Assembly: GCA_017856455.1 (NCBI GenBank)
Contig: JAFMEZ010000020.1
Coordinates: 1-36,141, forward strand
DNA length: 36,141 bases
Direction: 5' to 3'
Source of the DNA: Parafilimonas sp.
Lineage (GTDB): Bacteria; Bacteroidota; Bacteroidia; Chitinophagales; Chitinophagaceae
How positions within the stretch are numbered: position 1 is the first letter of the stretch; each line of letters begins with the position of its first letter. Below are positions 13,882-34,180 of this stretch, piece after piece. The notes under the pieces are model-generated. The model made no database searches. It had not been told where the DNA came from and saw only the letters and a list, made by a program, of their open reading frames with translations. The translations under genes and the position numbers were made by a program.

Positions 13882-13915
13882 TTGACAATTTTCAATTCCA
13901 ACAAGTCTATCTTTG
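13882..13915 (+). promoter_or_regulatory. Predicted promoter of the DUF3108 gene (TTGAC ... TATCTTTG), leaderless
   Basis: A full TAnnTTTG match at 13908-13915 ends 4 bases (CGGC) before the ATG at 13920. A TTGAC lies 23 bases upstream of the box, slightly more than the usual -33 spacing. The predicted start coincides with the start codon. Confidence 0.6.
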
Positions 13916-13919
13916 CGGC

Positions 13920-14720
13920 ATGGGTATCGTCAGACGTATTATTTTTACAGCTGTTCTTCTTGTATTTTCTGCTTCATTAATAGCTGATAATGATTTCTGT
14001 GGTGCTGAGAATATTTCATTCACAGGAAATGAGCAAGTAAATTTTAAGATATTTTATAATGTGATAGGATTATATGTTGATGCAGGAAATGCCTCATTTA
14101 CTGTCAGCAAGGCTAAAATTAATAATAAGCCTGTTTATCATATTGTTGGTCTTGGTACTTCAAACCCTTCTTATGACTGGATTTTCAGGGTGAGGGATAA
14201 ATATGAGACATACATAGATACCGCAACTTTAAAGCCTTATCGATTTGTTAGACATGTTGAAGAGGGTAGTTTCAGAAAAGACGATCTTGTAAATTTCAAC
14301 CAGGAAGAGCATAAAGCAATCTCACTAAAAGGAACTTTTAATGTACCACCTTGTATTCAGGATGTGTTGAGTGCAATATATTATGCAAGAAATATAGATT
14401 TTTCAAAACATGCTATTGGAGAAAAAATTCCATTCAGTATGTTTATCGATGATGAAGTCTATAATTTATATATCAGGTATCTTGGTAAGGAAGTAGTAAA
14501 AACGAAATACGGGATTTTTAACGCAATTAAATTTAAGCCGATGCTCATCGGCGGTACCATCTTTAAAGGCGGTGAATTAATGACTGTATGGGTTTCAGAC
14601 GATAATAATCATGTTCCACTGAGAATTGAAAGTCCGATCAGTGTAGGAAGCGTAAAAGTTGATATGATTAAGTTCAAGAATCTTCGTTATCCATTTACAT
14701 CTTTAATCAGTTGGCGATAA
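13920..14720 (+). CDS. DUF3108 domain-containing exported protein
   Basis: A 266-residue protein with an N-terminal signal peptide (about 1-22, after MGIVRR). It continues as a beta-rich domain that matches the DUF3108 pattern: FTGNEQVNFKIFYNVIGLYVDAGNA (seen as NEQVNFKIFYN and LYVDAGNASF), WIFRVRDKYETYID, YRFVRHVEEGSF, the central FNVPPCIQDVLSAIYYARN and IGGTIFKGGELMTVWVSDD. The function of DUF3108 is not established; the fold is lipocalin-like or periplasmic in predictions I know of. It lies downstream of the flippase-like gene but has its own promoter box. Its stop abuts the stop of the MBL hydrolase gene with no gap. Confidence 0.87.
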   Translation: MGIVRRIIFTAVLLVFSASLIADNDFCGAENISFTGNEQVNFKIFYNVIGLYVDAGNASFTVSKAKINNKPVYHIVGLGTSNPSYDWIFRVRDKYETYIDTATLKPYRFVRHVEEGSFRKDDLVNFNQEEHKAISLKGTFNVPPCIQDVLSAIYYARNIDFSKHAIGEKIPFSMFIDDEVYNLYIRYLGKEVVKTKYGIFNAIKFKPMLIGGTIFKGGELMTVWVSDDNNHVPLRIESPISVGSVKVDMIKFKNLRYPFTSLISWR

Positions 14721-26142: not shown

Positions 26143-28260
26143 TCAAGCAACTTTTTTTACAAATAATCTTACTGAATTTATCGCCAATACTACATCACTT
26201 AATCCCATCACCAATGCGCCTAGCGTTGGAGTCAACAATCCAAAAGCGGCTACTGGCAATGCTATGATATTATAGAAAAACGCCCAGAATAAATTTTGTT
26301 TGATTGTTAAATAGGTATGCTTACCTAATCCAAGTGCTGTTGGTAATTTTTTCAAACCCGAATTCATTAGCACAACTTGTGCACTTTGTATTGCCAATTG
26401 AGAGGCTTCACTCAGTGATATTCCAATGGTTGCCTTTGCAAGGGCAGGTGCATCATTGATGCCATCGCCTACCATCGCAGTAGGATGAAGTTTGGTTAGT
26501 TCATCAATTTTTTTGAGTTTTTCTTCTGGACTCTGTTCTGCAATGAATTCATCTAGTCCAAGCGCCTCTTGTATATGTTGACATTTTTCTTTTCGGTCGC
26601 CGCTCAGTAGAATAGTTTTAAGTCCAAGTTTTTTCAGGTGACTGATGATTTCCTTGGATTCTGGTCTCAATTCATCTTCAACATCAAGCCATCCTATCAG
26701 TTGCTTATTTTTTAAGATGTATACATTGTGATTGGATTCACTGGTAAGTGTATTGGCGATTTTATATGAACCAGCCCAGAACTCATTCCCATCACGATCA
26801 ATTCCTTTCATGCCAATTCCTTTTACTTCTTCAATTGATTTCCACTTGATCTCTTCTTTCACTTTAAATGCTGCAGCAATTGAAACTGCTATTGGATGTG
26901 TTGAATATTTTTCAAGAGAGTAAACCACTGTCTTGAAGAATTGGGGATCTACATCAATCTCTTTATAATTGGCGAGTTTAAATGATCCAGTGGTGAGGGT
27001 TCCTGTTTTATCGAAAACAATTTGTTTTATGTTTCTGAAATTTTCCAAACTTGTAGCATTCCTGAATAGTATCCCATTTCTTGCTGCCCTTCCGAGTCCA
27101 ACTGCTATCGCAGCAGGTGTTGCAAGTCCCATTGCACATGGGCATGCAATGACCAGCACAGCTATACTTCTCATAAGTGCTGCAGTAAATTCATTCAAAT
27201 AAAAAAAGTTTCCTAAAAATGTTAACACAGCTATGATGACAACGACTGGTACAAATATTCCGCTGATTTTATCAGCTAAATGCTGAATAGGAGGTTTTTC
27301 TCCTTGTGCTTGTTTAACCAGTTGTAATATGCCAGATAGAATAGTATCGTCTCCAGTTGCAGTAACCTGTGCTTTAACAGAGCCAGTCTCCAAGATGCTG
27401 CCCCCAATAATCTTGTCTTTTGCTATTTTATGAATAGGAATAGATTCTCCAGTCAGCAGTGATTCATTGACGTGTGCATCACCCCATAATATTTTAGCAT
27501 CGATTGGTACTTGTTCACCACTTCTTACAAGAATCAGATCACCAACTTTCAATTGGGTATTTTCAATCGGCATGATCACTTCCTGATGGTTTTCATCAAA
27601 TGCAATCATGTTGGCCATGATTTTTTGAGATTTCATCAGTGACTTCAATGCCCGTTGAGTGGATTGCATGGATGCATCTTCAAGGTAGTTTCCAAAAAAT
27701 ACCAGTGTGATTATGGTTGCAGCAGTCTCATAAAAAAGATACTGCTCTCCTTGTCCCATTAATGTGCCTATTAGACTATAAGCAAATGCTGCAAATGCTC
27801 CAAGTGCAACCAATACATTCATATTGGGCATTCGGTTGCGTAAGCTCTTGATTGCACTTCTTCCAAAAAAATTCATTCCAATAAGAAAAACCGGAAGGCA
27901 AAGGAATAACTGAAGCCATGGATTCATCAACCAATGGATGTGAATAACTGACTCAAGCATGTGAAGCATGAGTACAAGTGTAAAAGGAAGACAAAAAAGT
28001 AAGCGTTGAATATTCGTTGAAAGAAATGGAGCTTTCGTTTTATTGTCTTCATTCACTTTTTCGATGACATGATAACCCAGATCATCAATTCCTTTTTTGA
28101 TTGTATCTGTACTGGAACCATCCACCATTTCAAAAGAAACATCTCCGTCGATTGGATTTACACGAATATTTTGCATTCCTTGTTTATCCAAAAATTTATT
28201 GATGGTTAAGGCGCAATTTGCACAGGTCATACCGTCTACTTTCCAATTGACTTTTTCCAT
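26143..28260 (-). CDS. copA: Copper-translocating P1B-type ATPase
   Basis: Exports Cu(I) from the cytoplasm using ATP. One N-terminal heavy-metal domain with GMTCANC (Cys13, Cys16) is followed by about 8 membrane helices. The membrane metal site is CPC at 373-375 (VIACPCAMGLATP), the phosphorylated Asp is 417 in DKTGTLTTG, the His-Pro pair is in YSTHPIAV, and the hinge is MVGDGINDAPALA. The 705-residue length is compact. The start is well fixed because the metal domain begins at once. It is divergent from tsaE with only 36 bases between the start codons, and recQ follows. No CopZ chaperone or CueR/CsoR-type regulator is adjacent. Confidence 0.95.
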   Translation of the reverse strand: MEKVNWKVDGMTCANCALTINKFLDKQGMQNIRVNPIDGDVSFEMVDGSSTDTIKKGIDDLGYHVIEKVNEDNKTKAPFLSTNIQRLLFCLPFTLVLMLHMLESVIHIHWLMNPWLQLFLCLPVFLIGMNFFGRSAIKSLRNRMPNMNVLVALGAFAAFAYSLIGTLMGQGEQYLFYETAATIITLVFFGNYLEDASMQSTQRALKSLMKSQKIMANMIAFDENHQEVIMPIENTQLKVGDLILVRSGEQVPIDAKILWGDAHVNESLLTGESIPIHKIAKDKIIGGSILETGSVKAQVTATGDDTILSGILQLVKQAQGEKPPIQHLADKISGIFVPVVVIIAVLTFLGNFFYLNEFTAALMRSIAVLVIACPCAMGLATPAAIAVGLGRAARNGILFRNATSLENFRNIKQIVFDKTGTLTTGSFKLANYKEIDVDPQFFKTVVYSLEKYSTHPIAVSIAAAFKVKEEIKWKSIEEVKGIGMKGIDRDGNEFWAGSYKIANTLTSESNHNVYILKNKQLIGWLDVEDELRPESKEIISHLKKLGLKTILLSGDRKEKCQHIQEALGLDEFIAEQSPEEKLKKIDELTKLHPTAMVGDGINDAPALAKATIGISLSEASQLAIQSAQVVLMNSGLKKLPTALGLGKHTYLTIKQNLFWAFFYNIIALPVAAFGLLTPTLGALVMGLSDVVLAINSVRLFVKKVA

Positions 28261-28264
28261 AACC

Positions 28265-28272
28265 CAAAATTA
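28265..28272 (-). promoter_or_regulatory. Predicted -7 box of copA (TAATTTTG), leaderless
   Basis: A full TAnnTTTG match on the minus strand, ending 4 bases (GGTT) before the copA ATG. The predicted start point coincides with the start codon. Confidence 0.6.
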
Positions 28273-28282
28273 CAGATTAAAT

Positions 28283-28290
28283 TACCTTCG
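28283..28290 (+). promoter_or_regulatory. Predicted -7 box of tsaE (TACCTTCG), leaderless
   Basis: Matches TAnnTTTG at five of six defined bases and ends 6 bases before the tsaE ATG. It lies only 10 bases from the opposite-facing copA box, so the two RNA polymerase sites overlap. Confidence 0.5.
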
Positions 28291-28296
28291 CAGTCT

Positions 28297-28731
28297 ATGC
28301 AATTGCTTAAAAGAGATTTCACACTTCAAGAAATAGCAGATATTGCTGAGGAGATCATTCGTTTAATTCCCAGCTCAGCCGTAATTTGTTTTGAAGGAGA
28401 ATTGGGTGCTGGTAAAACCACATTGATCAGTTCAATCTGTAAACGAATGGGGGTAATCGATAATGTTAGCAGTCCCACTTTCTCTCTCATGAATCTTTAT
28501 AAAACTTCACCAGGTGCTCAATACCAGGATATTGTTCATATTGATTTTTATAGAATATCCGATGAGCAGGAGGCAATCCGAGCAGGAATTGAAGAGTATT
28601 TGTACAGTGGGGCCTGTTGTCTGATCGAGTGGCCACAAAAAGCCAGGGGTATTTTACCTGATCATTATTTACTTGTCAAGTTATCTTTTAAATCAGCAGA
28701 CAAAAGACATATAGAAGTAATCTCAACATAA
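28297..28731 (+). CDS. tsaE: tRNA N6-adenosine threonylcarbamoyltransferase complex ATPase TsaE
   Basis: TsaE is the P-loop ATPase that works with TsaB and TsaD to make t6A at position 37 of ANN-decoding tRNAs. The 144-residue protein has Walker A EGELGAGKTT (about 31-40), the switch-like VSSPTFSLMNLY, HIDFYRI and CLIEWPQKA, all family signatures. The length is normal. It starts at the first ATG after the promoter box and is followed after 16 bases by ald, so these two may be co-transcribed. tsaB and tsaD are not in the window. Confidence 0.95.
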   Translation: MQLLKRDFTLQEIADIAEEIIRLIPSSAVICFEGELGAGKTTLISSICKRMGVIDNVSSPTFSLMNLYKTSPGAQYQDIVHIDFYRISDEQEAIRAGIEEYLYSGACCLIEWPQKARGILPDHYLLVKLSFKSADKRHIEVIST

Positions 28732-28747: not shown

Positions 28748-29974
28748 ATGTATTTTAGAACAATGGCAAAGAAACCTTTTGTAAGTGCTGGCATCAGCTA
28801 TGAAACCTTAGAAGAAACATTGGATATTAAACCCTCTGCTTCATCCTTGTCAATTGCCATACCTAAGGAGAGTGAATTTCAGGAGAATAGAATTGCGCTT
28901 ACTCCAGATGCGGTTGGTGTACTGGTTAACAACGGACACGTTGTATCAGTTGAACACAAGGCAGGTGAAGGGGCCCATTTTTCTGATAAAGACTATGCTG
29001 ATGTAGGAGCAAAAATTGTCTTGGATAAAAAAGAGATATTTCAAAGTGATTTGATTGTAAAATCTGCGCCTGTTTCTGACGAGGAGTTGCCTTTGTTGTC
29101 ACTTGGACAAACAATTATTTCTCCCATACATCTTCCAGTTATGAAAACGCATATTCTTGAAAAGATGATGGAGAAAAAAGTTACTGCGCTTTCATTTGAA
29201 AATTTGAAGGATGAGTCTGGGCATAATCCAATTGTACGCAGCATGAGTGAAATTGCCGGCAGTGCGGTCATGCTTATCGCAGGTCAATATTTAAACAGTG
29301 CAAACCATGGGAAAGGAGTTTTATTGGGCGGTATATCCGGTATTCCTCCCACCAAGGTTATTATCATAGGTGCTGGAATTGTAGGTGAGTATGCAGCAAG
29401 AACTGCATTGGCAATGGGGGCAAGTGTAAAAGTATTTGATAACAATATCTATAAGCTTAAGCGTTTGCAGAATAATATCGGAGTTCGTTTATGGACATCC
29501 GTATTGGAGCCTAAAATTTTAGCAAAGCAATTGAAGACATGTGATGTTGCTGTTGGTGCACTTACTTCATCAAGTGGAAGGACGCCAGTTGTGGTGACTG
29601 AAGAGATGGTGTCAATGATGCGACCAGGAAGTGTGATTGTTGATGTGAGTATTGATAGGGGAGGTTGTTTTGAAACTTCAGAAGTTACCTCTCATGAGAG
29701 ACCAATTGTAAAAAAATTTGATGTCATTCATTACGGCGTTCCAAATATTCCATCTGGATTTGCAAGAACAGCATCACAGGCTATCAGCAATGTGTTGATG
29801 CCATTATTGTTGAGAATTGGTGATGAGGGCGGACTTGAAAAGTTGGTTTGGCACAACTTGAACATACGTAACGGTATATATATGTTCAAAGGGGCGCTTA
29901 CAAATTTCCATTTGTCACAGCGTTTCAAATTGAAATATACTGATCTTAATCTGTTGATCGCAAGTCAGCGTTGA
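28748..29974 (+). CDS. ald: Alanine dehydrogenase
   Basis: An NAD-dependent enzyme that interconverts L-alanine with pyruvate plus ammonia. N-terminal AIPKESEFQENRIALTPDAV and the later GAGEG-like EHKAGEGAHFSDKDY match the AlaDH/PNT domain; the Rossmann motif is VIIIGAGIVGEYAAR (about 198-212), and VDVSIDRGGCFETS is a strong AlaDH signature. At 408 residues it is longer than the Bacillus enzyme (about 378), mainly through an N-terminal extension (SAGISYETLEETLD) that I associate with Bacteroidota forms. An alternative ATG lies at 28763. It is 16 bases after tsaE and converges on fumC with a 12-base gap. Confidence 0.93.
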   Translation: MYFRTMAKKPFVSAGISYETLEETLDIKPSASSLSIAIPKESEFQENRIALTPDAVGVLVNNGHVVSVEHKAGEGAHFSDKDYADVGAKIVLDKKEIFQSDLIVKSAPVSDEELPLLSLGQTIISPIHLPVMKTHILEKMMEKKVTALSFENLKDESGHNPIVRSMSEIAGSAVMLIAGQYLNSANHGKGVLLGGISGIPPTKVIIIGAGIVGEYAARTALAMGASVKVFDNNIYKLKRLQNNIGVRLWTSVLEPKILAKQLKTCDVAVGALTSSSGRTPVVVTEEMVSMMRPGSVIVDVSIDRGGCFETSEVTSHERPIVKKFDVIHYGVPNIPSGFARTASQAISNVLMPLLLRIGDEGGLEKLVWHNLNIRNGIYMFKGALTNFHLSQRFKLKYTDLNLLIASQR

Positions 29975-32611: not shown

Positions 32612-34144
32612 TTATTTATTAAACAGGTTGAGTGCCTTGTTCATCCTTTCAAGAGTGGCATCTTTTCCTATGATGGCTGCAATCTCAAAAACTGCAGGTC
32701 CGAATTTCCCTCCAACCAACATGATTCTGAAAGGGAGCTGTACATCGCCTGGCTTTAATTGATATGTTGATGCAGTTTGTTTGAAAACATTTTCAATATC
32801 CTGACCAATCCAATTGTTTAATGATGCAAACTCCTGTTTGCATGCTTTAAAGAAATCAGCTTTCTGCTGATCCCATTTTGGTTTTACGGCATCAGTATCA
32901 ATTTCTTCAGGTGCTGTAAAAAAGTATTTCAACTGTATTAAAAAATCACTGATCAAATGGCAACGCTCTTTCGTAAGAGGGATCACCTGATTTAAAATAT
33001 TATTATCAGCTTTAATTCCATTGTCATCAAGTAATCGTTTTACATATGGAATCAATATTTCATTGGAACTTGCTTTCAGCCATTCATGATTGTACCATTT
33101 TGCTTTTTCAAAATCAAACTTGGCACCCCCTTTATGAATTCTTTCAACCGAAAATTGTTGGATCAATTCATCTTTTGTGAAAATTTCTTTTCCGCTCCCA
33201 TCATTCCATCCTAACATCGCCAACATATTAATGAAGGCATCTGGCATGAATCCCATTTCTTTGAAACCCTTTGTCAATTCACCTGTTTTGGGATCTTTCC
33301 AATCCATTGCAAATACAGGAAATCCTAAACGGTCTCCATCGCGCTTACTTAATTTTCCTTGTCCGTCTGGTTTTAAAATCAGTGGGAAATGCGCCCAATT
33401 TGGCATATCGTCTTTCCATCCCAAGTATTCCCACAGCAAGATGTGAACTGGTGCAGAAGGCAACCATTCTTCACCCCTAAACGCATGTGTTATTTCCATT
33501 GCATGATCATCCACCACCACTGCCAAATGATAGGTTGGCATACCATCAGCTTTTAATAATACTTTGTCATCTACCAAATGTGAATGGAAAACAACCTCAC
33601 CTCTGATCATATCTTGCAAATGAATCTCTTTCTGATCAGGCATTTTAATTCTGATCACATAGGGTTGATTTGATGCAAGCTTTTTTTCAACTTCTTCCTT
33701 TGGCAAAGAAAGGGAGTTAGACATTTTTAATCTTGTCTCATGATTGTATTGAGGAGATGGGTTACTTTCAGTTTTGAATTCCTCCCGCATTTTTTCCAAT
33801 TCTTCTGTCGTGTCAAACGCATAATAAGCAAAACCTTTATCAACTAATTCCAATGCATATTTGCGGTAGAGTTCTTTTCTCTCACTCTGACGATAAGGTC
33901 CAAATTTTCCTGGTTGATGCGGACCTTCATCTGGTGCGATGCCGCACCATGTTAAACAATCAATGATATATTGTTCAGCTCCTGGTACATAGCGAGTTTG
34001 GTCGGTGTCTTCTATGCGCAGCACAAAACTGCCGTTGTATTTTTTTGCAAACAGATAATTAAATAATGCAGTTCTAACTCCACCGAGATGGAGTCCGCCT
34101 GTTGGACTAGGCGCAAAACGAACTCGAACAGGTTTTTGAGACAT
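32612..34144 (-). CDS. gltX: Glutamyl-tRNA synthetase
   Basis: A class I synthetase that charges tRNA-Glu. The HIGH-type motif is HLGG in [20 protein letters not shown] (about 11-30) and the KMSKS-type motif is KLSKR in [30 protein letters not shown] and [16 protein letters not shown] are further family markers. At 510 residues it is slightly longer than the E. coli enzyme (471). The first gene after a -7 box that ends only 4 bases before its ATG. The CoA-binding protein gene lies 36 bases upstream on the same strand, and the B12-binding gene starts 7 bases after gltX. Confidence 0.97.
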
Positions 34145-34148
34145 GCTG

Positions 34149-34156
34149 CAAAGATA
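34149..34156 (-). promoter_or_regulatory. Predicted -7 box of gltX (TATCTTTG), leaderless
   Basis: A full TAnnTTTG match on the minus strand, followed by CAGC and then the ATG. Transcription would start at, or one base before, the start codon. Confidence 0.6.
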
Positions 34157-34180
34157 AGCACTAATAAAGGATGACTTGGT

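Follow-up and report, generated by a model that had tools for sequence, protein, structure and literature searches.

A very compact divergent promoter pair between a copA-like gene and tsaE, with predicted leaderless spacing of copA conserved across a Chitinophagaceae genus

Introduction

Bacteroidota promoters of the sigma-A (sigma-ABfr) type are characterised by the -7 box TAnnTTTG, which spans positions -12 to -5 in Flavobacterium johnsoniae (PMC6847099) and Flavobacterium psychrophilum (PMC9723704), in the portions of these papers drawn on here. For F. johnsoniae, the same portion describes a much less evident -33 element and AT-rich motifs, with centres at -18 and -28, that stand out more (PMC6847099). 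Leaderless mRNAs have been found to be rare in the Bacteroidota studied (PMC9723704, PMC7366714, PMC3160421, each in part), with 5.5% in F. psychrophilum (PMC9723704), 5' UTRs shorter than 10 nt at around 3.7% in Bacteroides thetaiotaomicron (PMC7366714), and 87% of leaders over 10 nt in F. johnsoniae (PMC6847099), all figures from the cited parts of these sources. The bidirectional promoters of Warman, Grainger, and colleagues fire divergently from a short stretch, with one polymerase orientation at a time, and share or interlock near-symmetrical -10 elements, with starts 7 to 25 bp apart, most often 18 (PMC12825309, PMC10268837, excerpts of both). According to an excerpt of the former source, the basal activity of all five bidirectional promoters tested in Escherichia coli was too low for them to compete, although one side, when strongly activated, could repress its counterpart (PMC12825309). 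In the plasmid pLS20, the back-to-back promoters Pr and Pc overlap, and a dedicated regulator together with DNA looping makes them a switch (PMC4207663, in part).

The locus described here lies in a contig of Parafilimonas sp., of which 36,141 nucleotides were analysed (the whole of this stretch is called the window), and consists of a copA-like gene and tsaE transcribed away from each other. It has the box of the sigma-A promoters and, as in F. johnsoniae, no clear -33 element, but differs from them in that two boxes stand back to back, 10 bp apart, with predicted leaders of almost zero length. Unlike the Warman-type promoters, the two boxes are separate and asymmetrical, and the predicted starts are 35 bp apart, outside the range of that class, so the gap would resemble it only in excluding a second polymerase. 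Its promoters are arranged back to back as in pLS20, but neither a dedicated regulator nor looping was seen at copA/tsaE. As in the leaderless mRNAs of other Bacteroidota, the start codon is predicted to be at or near the 5' end; the difference is that the predicted leaderless spacing, of copA and also of gltX, is held genus-wide. Among the matches listed for a search of the open-access literature with limited terms, there was no paper on the copA/tsaE pair and none on leaderless promoters in Chitinophagaceae.

The intergenic region and its flanking genes

The coordinates of the region are collected in Table 1, and both start codons agree with the gene calls. Re-reading of the gap bore out the preliminary description in its geometry, namely a minus-strand TAATTTTG separated by 4 nt from the copA start codon and a plus-strand TACCTTCG separated by 6 nt from that of tsaE, with 10 nt between the opposite boxes. 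It had also placed the upstream element of each promoter inside the coding sequence of the neighbor, which holds only in part, as the expected -36 to -33 places sit at the margin of the gap and over the other start codon rather than deep inside the gene. TTTG is absent at both places.

Table 1. Features of the copA/tsaE region, in positions of the window
Feature	Positions	Strand	Remarks
copA-like heavy-metal P-type ATPase, 705 aa	26143-28260	minus	TIGR01525, TIGR01511, PF00122, PF00702
copA start codon (ATG)	28260-28258	minus
Gap between the divergent genes	28261-28296		36 bp
Spacer from copA box to ATG, 4 nt	28261-28264	minus	length invariant in 34/34 genus rows and in G007/L120
copA -7 box TAATTTTG	28265-28272	minus	exact TAnnTTTG
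Inter-box spacer CAGATTAAAT, 10 nt	28273-28282		AT-rich; conserved in short-gap genomes
tsaE -7 box TACCTTCG	28283-28290	plus	one-letter variant of TAnnTTTG
Spacer from tsaE box to ATG, 6 nt	28291-28296	plus	predicted +1 at 28295, leader of about 2 nt
Place of -36 to -33 for copA	28293-28296		for a predicted +1 at 28260
Place of -36 to -33 for tsaE	28259-28262		for a predicted +1 at 28295
tsaE, t6A synthesis ATPase subunit, 144 aa	28297-28731	plus	TIGR00150, PF02367; ATG starts at 28297
Alanine dehydrogenase-like gene	28748-29974	plus	PF01262, PF05222

The copA-like protein belongs to the heavy-metal P1B-type ATPases by its score against TIGR01525 (535.8 bits, cut-off 346.25). It exceeds the cut-off of the copper profile TIGR01511 (506.4 bits versus 397) and also that of the cadmium profile TIGR01512 (414 versus 313.5), its HMA domain scores slightly below the cut-off of PF00403 (23.7 versus 24.8 bits), and it stays far below that of the CopA equivalog NF007952 (395.7 versus 1316 bits). 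Since both metal profiles were passed and the HMA domain lies below its cut-off, copper is the likely substrate rather than a proven one. The draft genome holds no second full-length match, and the other matches are weak pieces (26 to 32% identity) in one 957-aa frame. Near its end, the protein (window 26143-28260) reads MGLSD at the place where copper ATPases have MxxSS, which, together with the cadmium score, makes the substrate worth testing.

TsaE was identified by TIGR00150 (105.2 bits, cut-off 60.1) and also by PF02367. The gene that follows tsaE after a 16-nt gap is alanine dehydrogenase-like, with a score below the cut-off of TIGR00518 (303.7 versus 391.85 bits), and is perhaps on the same transcript.

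Both boxes look like functional -7 elements

To place the boxes in their genomic context, we used a sample of 494 kb plus the window, from a draft genome of 1.94 Mb that is 89% complete, in which a simple codon model called 378 ATG genes with 150 nt upstream; copA and tsaE themselves were left out of the counts against expectation, leaving 376. TAnnTTTG and TAnnTTCG boxes were concentrated within 40 nt of the ATGs, with 24 at 0 to 9 nt (3.4 expected) and 69 at 10 to 40 nt (10.6 expected). The distribution has a sharp mode at a spacer of 4, where 10 of the 376 genes have a box at exactly that distance and 0.34 is expected per position. TAnnTTCG is itself enriched before ATGs, with 6, 6, and 4 occurrences in the first three 10-nt bins and none in any bin between 70 and 139 nt. 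In random 36-mers of upstream composition (zero-order), both boxes would occur at spacers of 3 to 7 with a probability of about 3e-5. Both boxes of the gap look like functional -7 boxes, as the preliminary description had proposed, and are of the sigma-A type, the copA box being exact and the tsaE box an enriched one-letter variant. No -33 signal was detected in 93 aligned box sites of the sampled genome. Because a clear one is likewise missing in F. johnsoniae, we would not treat a -33 TTTG as defining for sigma-A -7 promoters.

The spacer of 4, combined with the published position of the box, puts the predicted copA +1 at the A of the AUG (28260), so copA should be leaderless, while the spacer of 6 predicts a leader of about 2 nt for tsaE. 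The earlier proposal that both mRNAs lack a 5' UTR is thus retained as a prediction for copA and replaced by a very short leader for tsaE.

Of the 68 divergent pairs in the genome sample, no other with boxes on both sides has a gap as small as that of copA/tsaE. Facing boxes also occur elsewhere in the printed gaps of this genome, 17 nt apart in L066 (8259/8328) and 23 nt apart in the window (9535/9605). In a further divergent pair of the sample, in L050 (10274/10338), just 8 nt lie between the facing -7 boxes.

The pair in the genus, the family, and the order

We searched 37 of the 41 genomes of the genus, with G260 and G445 to G447 outside the survey at this locus, and found tsaE in 36, with readable upstream DNA in 35. 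In total, 58 tsaE matches led to 49 genomes that were read (30 loci and 20 regions, with one repeat), 36 of them from the genus and 13 of 22 at the order level. Dropped before counting were 13 copA/tsaE loci that repeat the gaps of other genomes, L127 (a second copy of G028), G003 (where the contig ends), and G034 (no tsaE match); G007 was added separately to the script rows.

A divergent copA lies beside tsaE in all 35 readable genomes of the genus, and in all of them a -7-type box stands exactly 4 nt before the copA ATG (34 script rows plus G007). This count also allows boxes that end in A instead of G, as do 5 of the 34 by our own count, the short-gap genome G024 among them. The gap is short in 17 of the 35 genomes (36 bp in 15, 35 bp in one, and 37 bp in one), all with both boxes, and long in the other 18, which keep the pair with 76 to 166 bp (the 90 bp of G007 was measured between protein matches). 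The tsaE spacer is loose: it is 6 nt in 16 of 34 rows, 4 to 9 nt in 27, and up to 18 nt in others, while 2 rows have no box within 25 nt of the ATG. Judging from these spacers, which vary among relatives, tsaE would be near-leaderless at best.

Within the family, the divergent arrangement occurs in 20 of 28 newly fetched loci, with a copA box spacer of 4 nt in 5 of those 20; the family loci are the best 30 of 124 matches (28 of them new) and not a random sample. At the order level, copA was beside tsaE in none of the 13 loci read, with 9 more matches outside the sample. In L015 (G036), there is a stop in the copA frame within the stretch read, which may reflect a contig edge, an error, or a real change.

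Predicted leaderless spacing of other genes

Two further genes of the window were followed as controls. Upstream of gltX (window 34144-34160, minus strand; L171 to L200), a TATCTTTG-type box lies exactly 4 nt before the ATG in 29 of 30 genus rows and is often preceded by CTGCT. For the DUF3108 gene (window 13908-13920; L201 to L230), whose start codons are uncertain, 23 of 29 rows show a box 3 to 4 nt upstream of a candidate ATG. For both genes, ATGs with a box 3 to 8 nt upstream were preferred, which favors short spacers; the start chosen agrees with the position that the alignment predicts in 26 of 30 gltX rows but in only 10 of 29 DUF3108 rows. On this basis, the gltX promoter appears conserved and is predicted to be leaderless.

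The exact 4-nt spacing over the genus suggests that a message starting at the AUG itself may have been selected for copA and gltX. Because leaderless mRNAs are rare in the Bacteroidota studied, this genus-wide exactness (35/35 for copA, 29/30 for gltX) is the part of our results that specialists may not expect.

Conservation of the core

Among the 15 genomes with a gap of exactly 36 bp (mean pairwise identity, 105 pairs), the 26-nt core formed by the boxes and the spacer between them is 89% identical and the 10-nt spacer 92%, compared with 55% for the other 10 gap positions and 42% for copA 4-fold sites. With five representatives, the values are 87% for the core, 88% for the spacer, 46% for the other gap positions, and 36% for the 4-fold sites. 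Six of the ten spacer columns are invariant across the 17 short-gap genomes. In the control promoters, identity over the 10 nt upstream of the box was 72% for gltX (15 genomes) and 60% for DUF3108 (13 genomes), or 70% (5) and 38% (4) with representatives, and over the 5 nt adjoining the box it was 87% and 61%. In its conservation, the inter-box spacer is thus roughly what two gltX-like half-spacers joined together would give, and it clearly exceeds the DUF3108 control. As it is more conserved than both control promoters, a constraint beyond the two boxes may exist; an AT-rich -18 region shared by the two sides could explain it. Spacer conservation as a general promoter feature was also considered and rejected, as the base preference upstream of the 93 sampled boxes is too weak.

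The exact core pattern was found in 14 genome records, in a search that may leave out records of the window's own genome. Thirteen of these have it between copA and tsaE, which led us to discard the core as a regulon, while neither tsaE nor copA was matched in the remaining one (L076). Allowing up to 3 mismatches gave matches in 115 of 394 genomes of the family, and the reversed control also matched in many; with 0 to 1 mismatches, among the matches listed, the core was seen only in five genomes of the genus. The exact-core records are titled Chitinophagaceae bacterium, Chitinophagales bacterium, Chitinophaga pinensis, Bacteroidales bacterium, Bacteroidetes bacterium, and uncultured bacterium, and several isolate names look like those of lake samples.

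Probable compaction of an old divergent pair

The copA/tsaE gap is a real, conserved, and very compact divergent promoter pair that is ordinary in kind. We consider it probable that an old pair kept its boxes while the gap shrank in one clade, with no special switch involved. RNA polymerase would begin copA on the first base of the start codon, the A, and tsaE some 2 nt upstream of the ATG. The divergent pair would be older than the short gap, which would have shrunk within one clade of the genus from 76 to 166 bp to about 36 bp, leaving little beyond the two boxes and an AT-rich spacer that would act as the -18-type region of both. Shrinkage could have gone so far because both promoters would have had almost no leader. 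That 18 of the 35 readable genomes of the genus keep the pair with long gaps points to the overlap as a lineage-specific compaction and not a requirement.

A tree built from CopA plus TsaE (39 rows) places every one of the 17 short rows, along with 6 long ones, in a single 23-row clade with full support; the short state needs three changes. The five family outgroup rows are long, which makes the short gap derived; the tree is compatible with a single origin followed by two re-expansions or with up to three origins. Short-gap genomes are also smaller, with a completeness-corrected median of 2.66 versus 3.62 Mb (17 versus 17 rows; Mann-Whitney p = 0.0003, with relatedness not removed). In the long-gap relative L013, the word TTACTGAAT, recognised by eye, adjoins both promoters and could mark the site of a deletion that joined them in the lineage with short gaps.

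If compaction is the explanation, a working divergent promoter region may shrink to 36 bp between start codons, provided that its promoters can do without a clear -33 element and its mRNAs without a leader.

Competition, operator, and other readings

RNA polymerase has a footprint such that two holoenzymes could hardly be bound at once over the 35 bp that separate the two predicted starts. Owing to the size of the enzyme, it is plausible that two polymerases exclude each other at the gap, but regulation does not follow from this. Under compaction, the two polymerases would not be bound together, with a minor effect at ordinary promoter strengths, and strong induction of copA, if there is any, could incidentally reduce the transcription of tsaE. 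Should the two promoters compete after all, the locus would offer a simple natural setting in which to test polymerase interference in a bacterium other than E. coli.

The preliminary description went further and suggested mutually exclusive or competitive regulation of the copper exporter and the t6A gene. A true switch, in which copper-induced copA turns tsaE down or the reverse and the coupling is under selection, would fit the closeness of the boxes and of the predicted starts and the strong conservation of the short arrangement in 17 genomes. It also has precedents in the one-sided repression seen at strongly activated E. coli promoters (PMC12825309, in part) and in the overlapping divergent promoters of the pLS20 switch (PMC4207663, in part). 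We nevertheless regard such a switch as unlikely and mutually exclusive regulation as unsupported. Against it stand the 18 relatives of the same genus that keep the pair with long gaps, the lack of basal competition in five of five E. coli cases in the excerpt of that source (PMC12825309), and the outcome of the search for regulators. A search of the draft genome (89% complete) found no CsoR family member, and neither of its two MerR-fold proteins (a short one that is extended at its N-terminus and one with a long C-terminal part) resembles CueR as judged by eye. To our knowledge, there is also no link between the functions of copper export and t6A synthesis.

The spacer could instead be an operator, with the inverted repeat AATTTA-N5-TAAATT binding a regulator of both promoters together, a reading that we find doubtful. 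By eye, its arms are perfect in 12 of the 17 short-gap genomes and imperfect in this genome, its three nearest kin, and G026. The invariant spacer columns and the higher conservation than in the control promoters speak for it; against it, the left arm falls inside the copA box and is imperfect here, the placement of 13 of 14 exact cores at this one locus leaves no regulon, and AT-rich -18 motifs as in F. johnsoniae (PMC6847099, in part) could suffice. An extra protein site in the spacer is possible. Harder still to credit is the 26-bp core as a two-way control unit, in which copper-driven, leaderless firing of copA would shut tsaE off; if true, it would tie the supply of tRNA t6A, and hence translation, to copper stress in these Chitinophagaceae.

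Finally, that AT-rich DNA matches the box pattern here by coincidence, with the real promoters elsewhere, a reading for which the genome (GC 0.37) is A+T-rich enough and the boxes short enough, was rejected, with an extremely small residual likelihood, by the enrichment before ATGs, the improbability of both spacers in random 36-mers, the invariant distance of the copA box to its ATG, and the conservation of the boxes while synonymous sites diverge.

A different motif was seen in the longer gaps. The inverted repeat GCAAC-N3-(C/G)TTGC is present in 4 of 17 long-gap copA/tsaE gaps of the genus (L023, L119, L121, and L126), at the same offset in all four, 45 from the copA ATG. Of 21 additional gaps, 20 from the family and one from the genus, three carry it as well (L139, L152, and L156). 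In letter shuffles, its count is about zero. It is a candidate operator, and the short gaps have no room for it at that offset.
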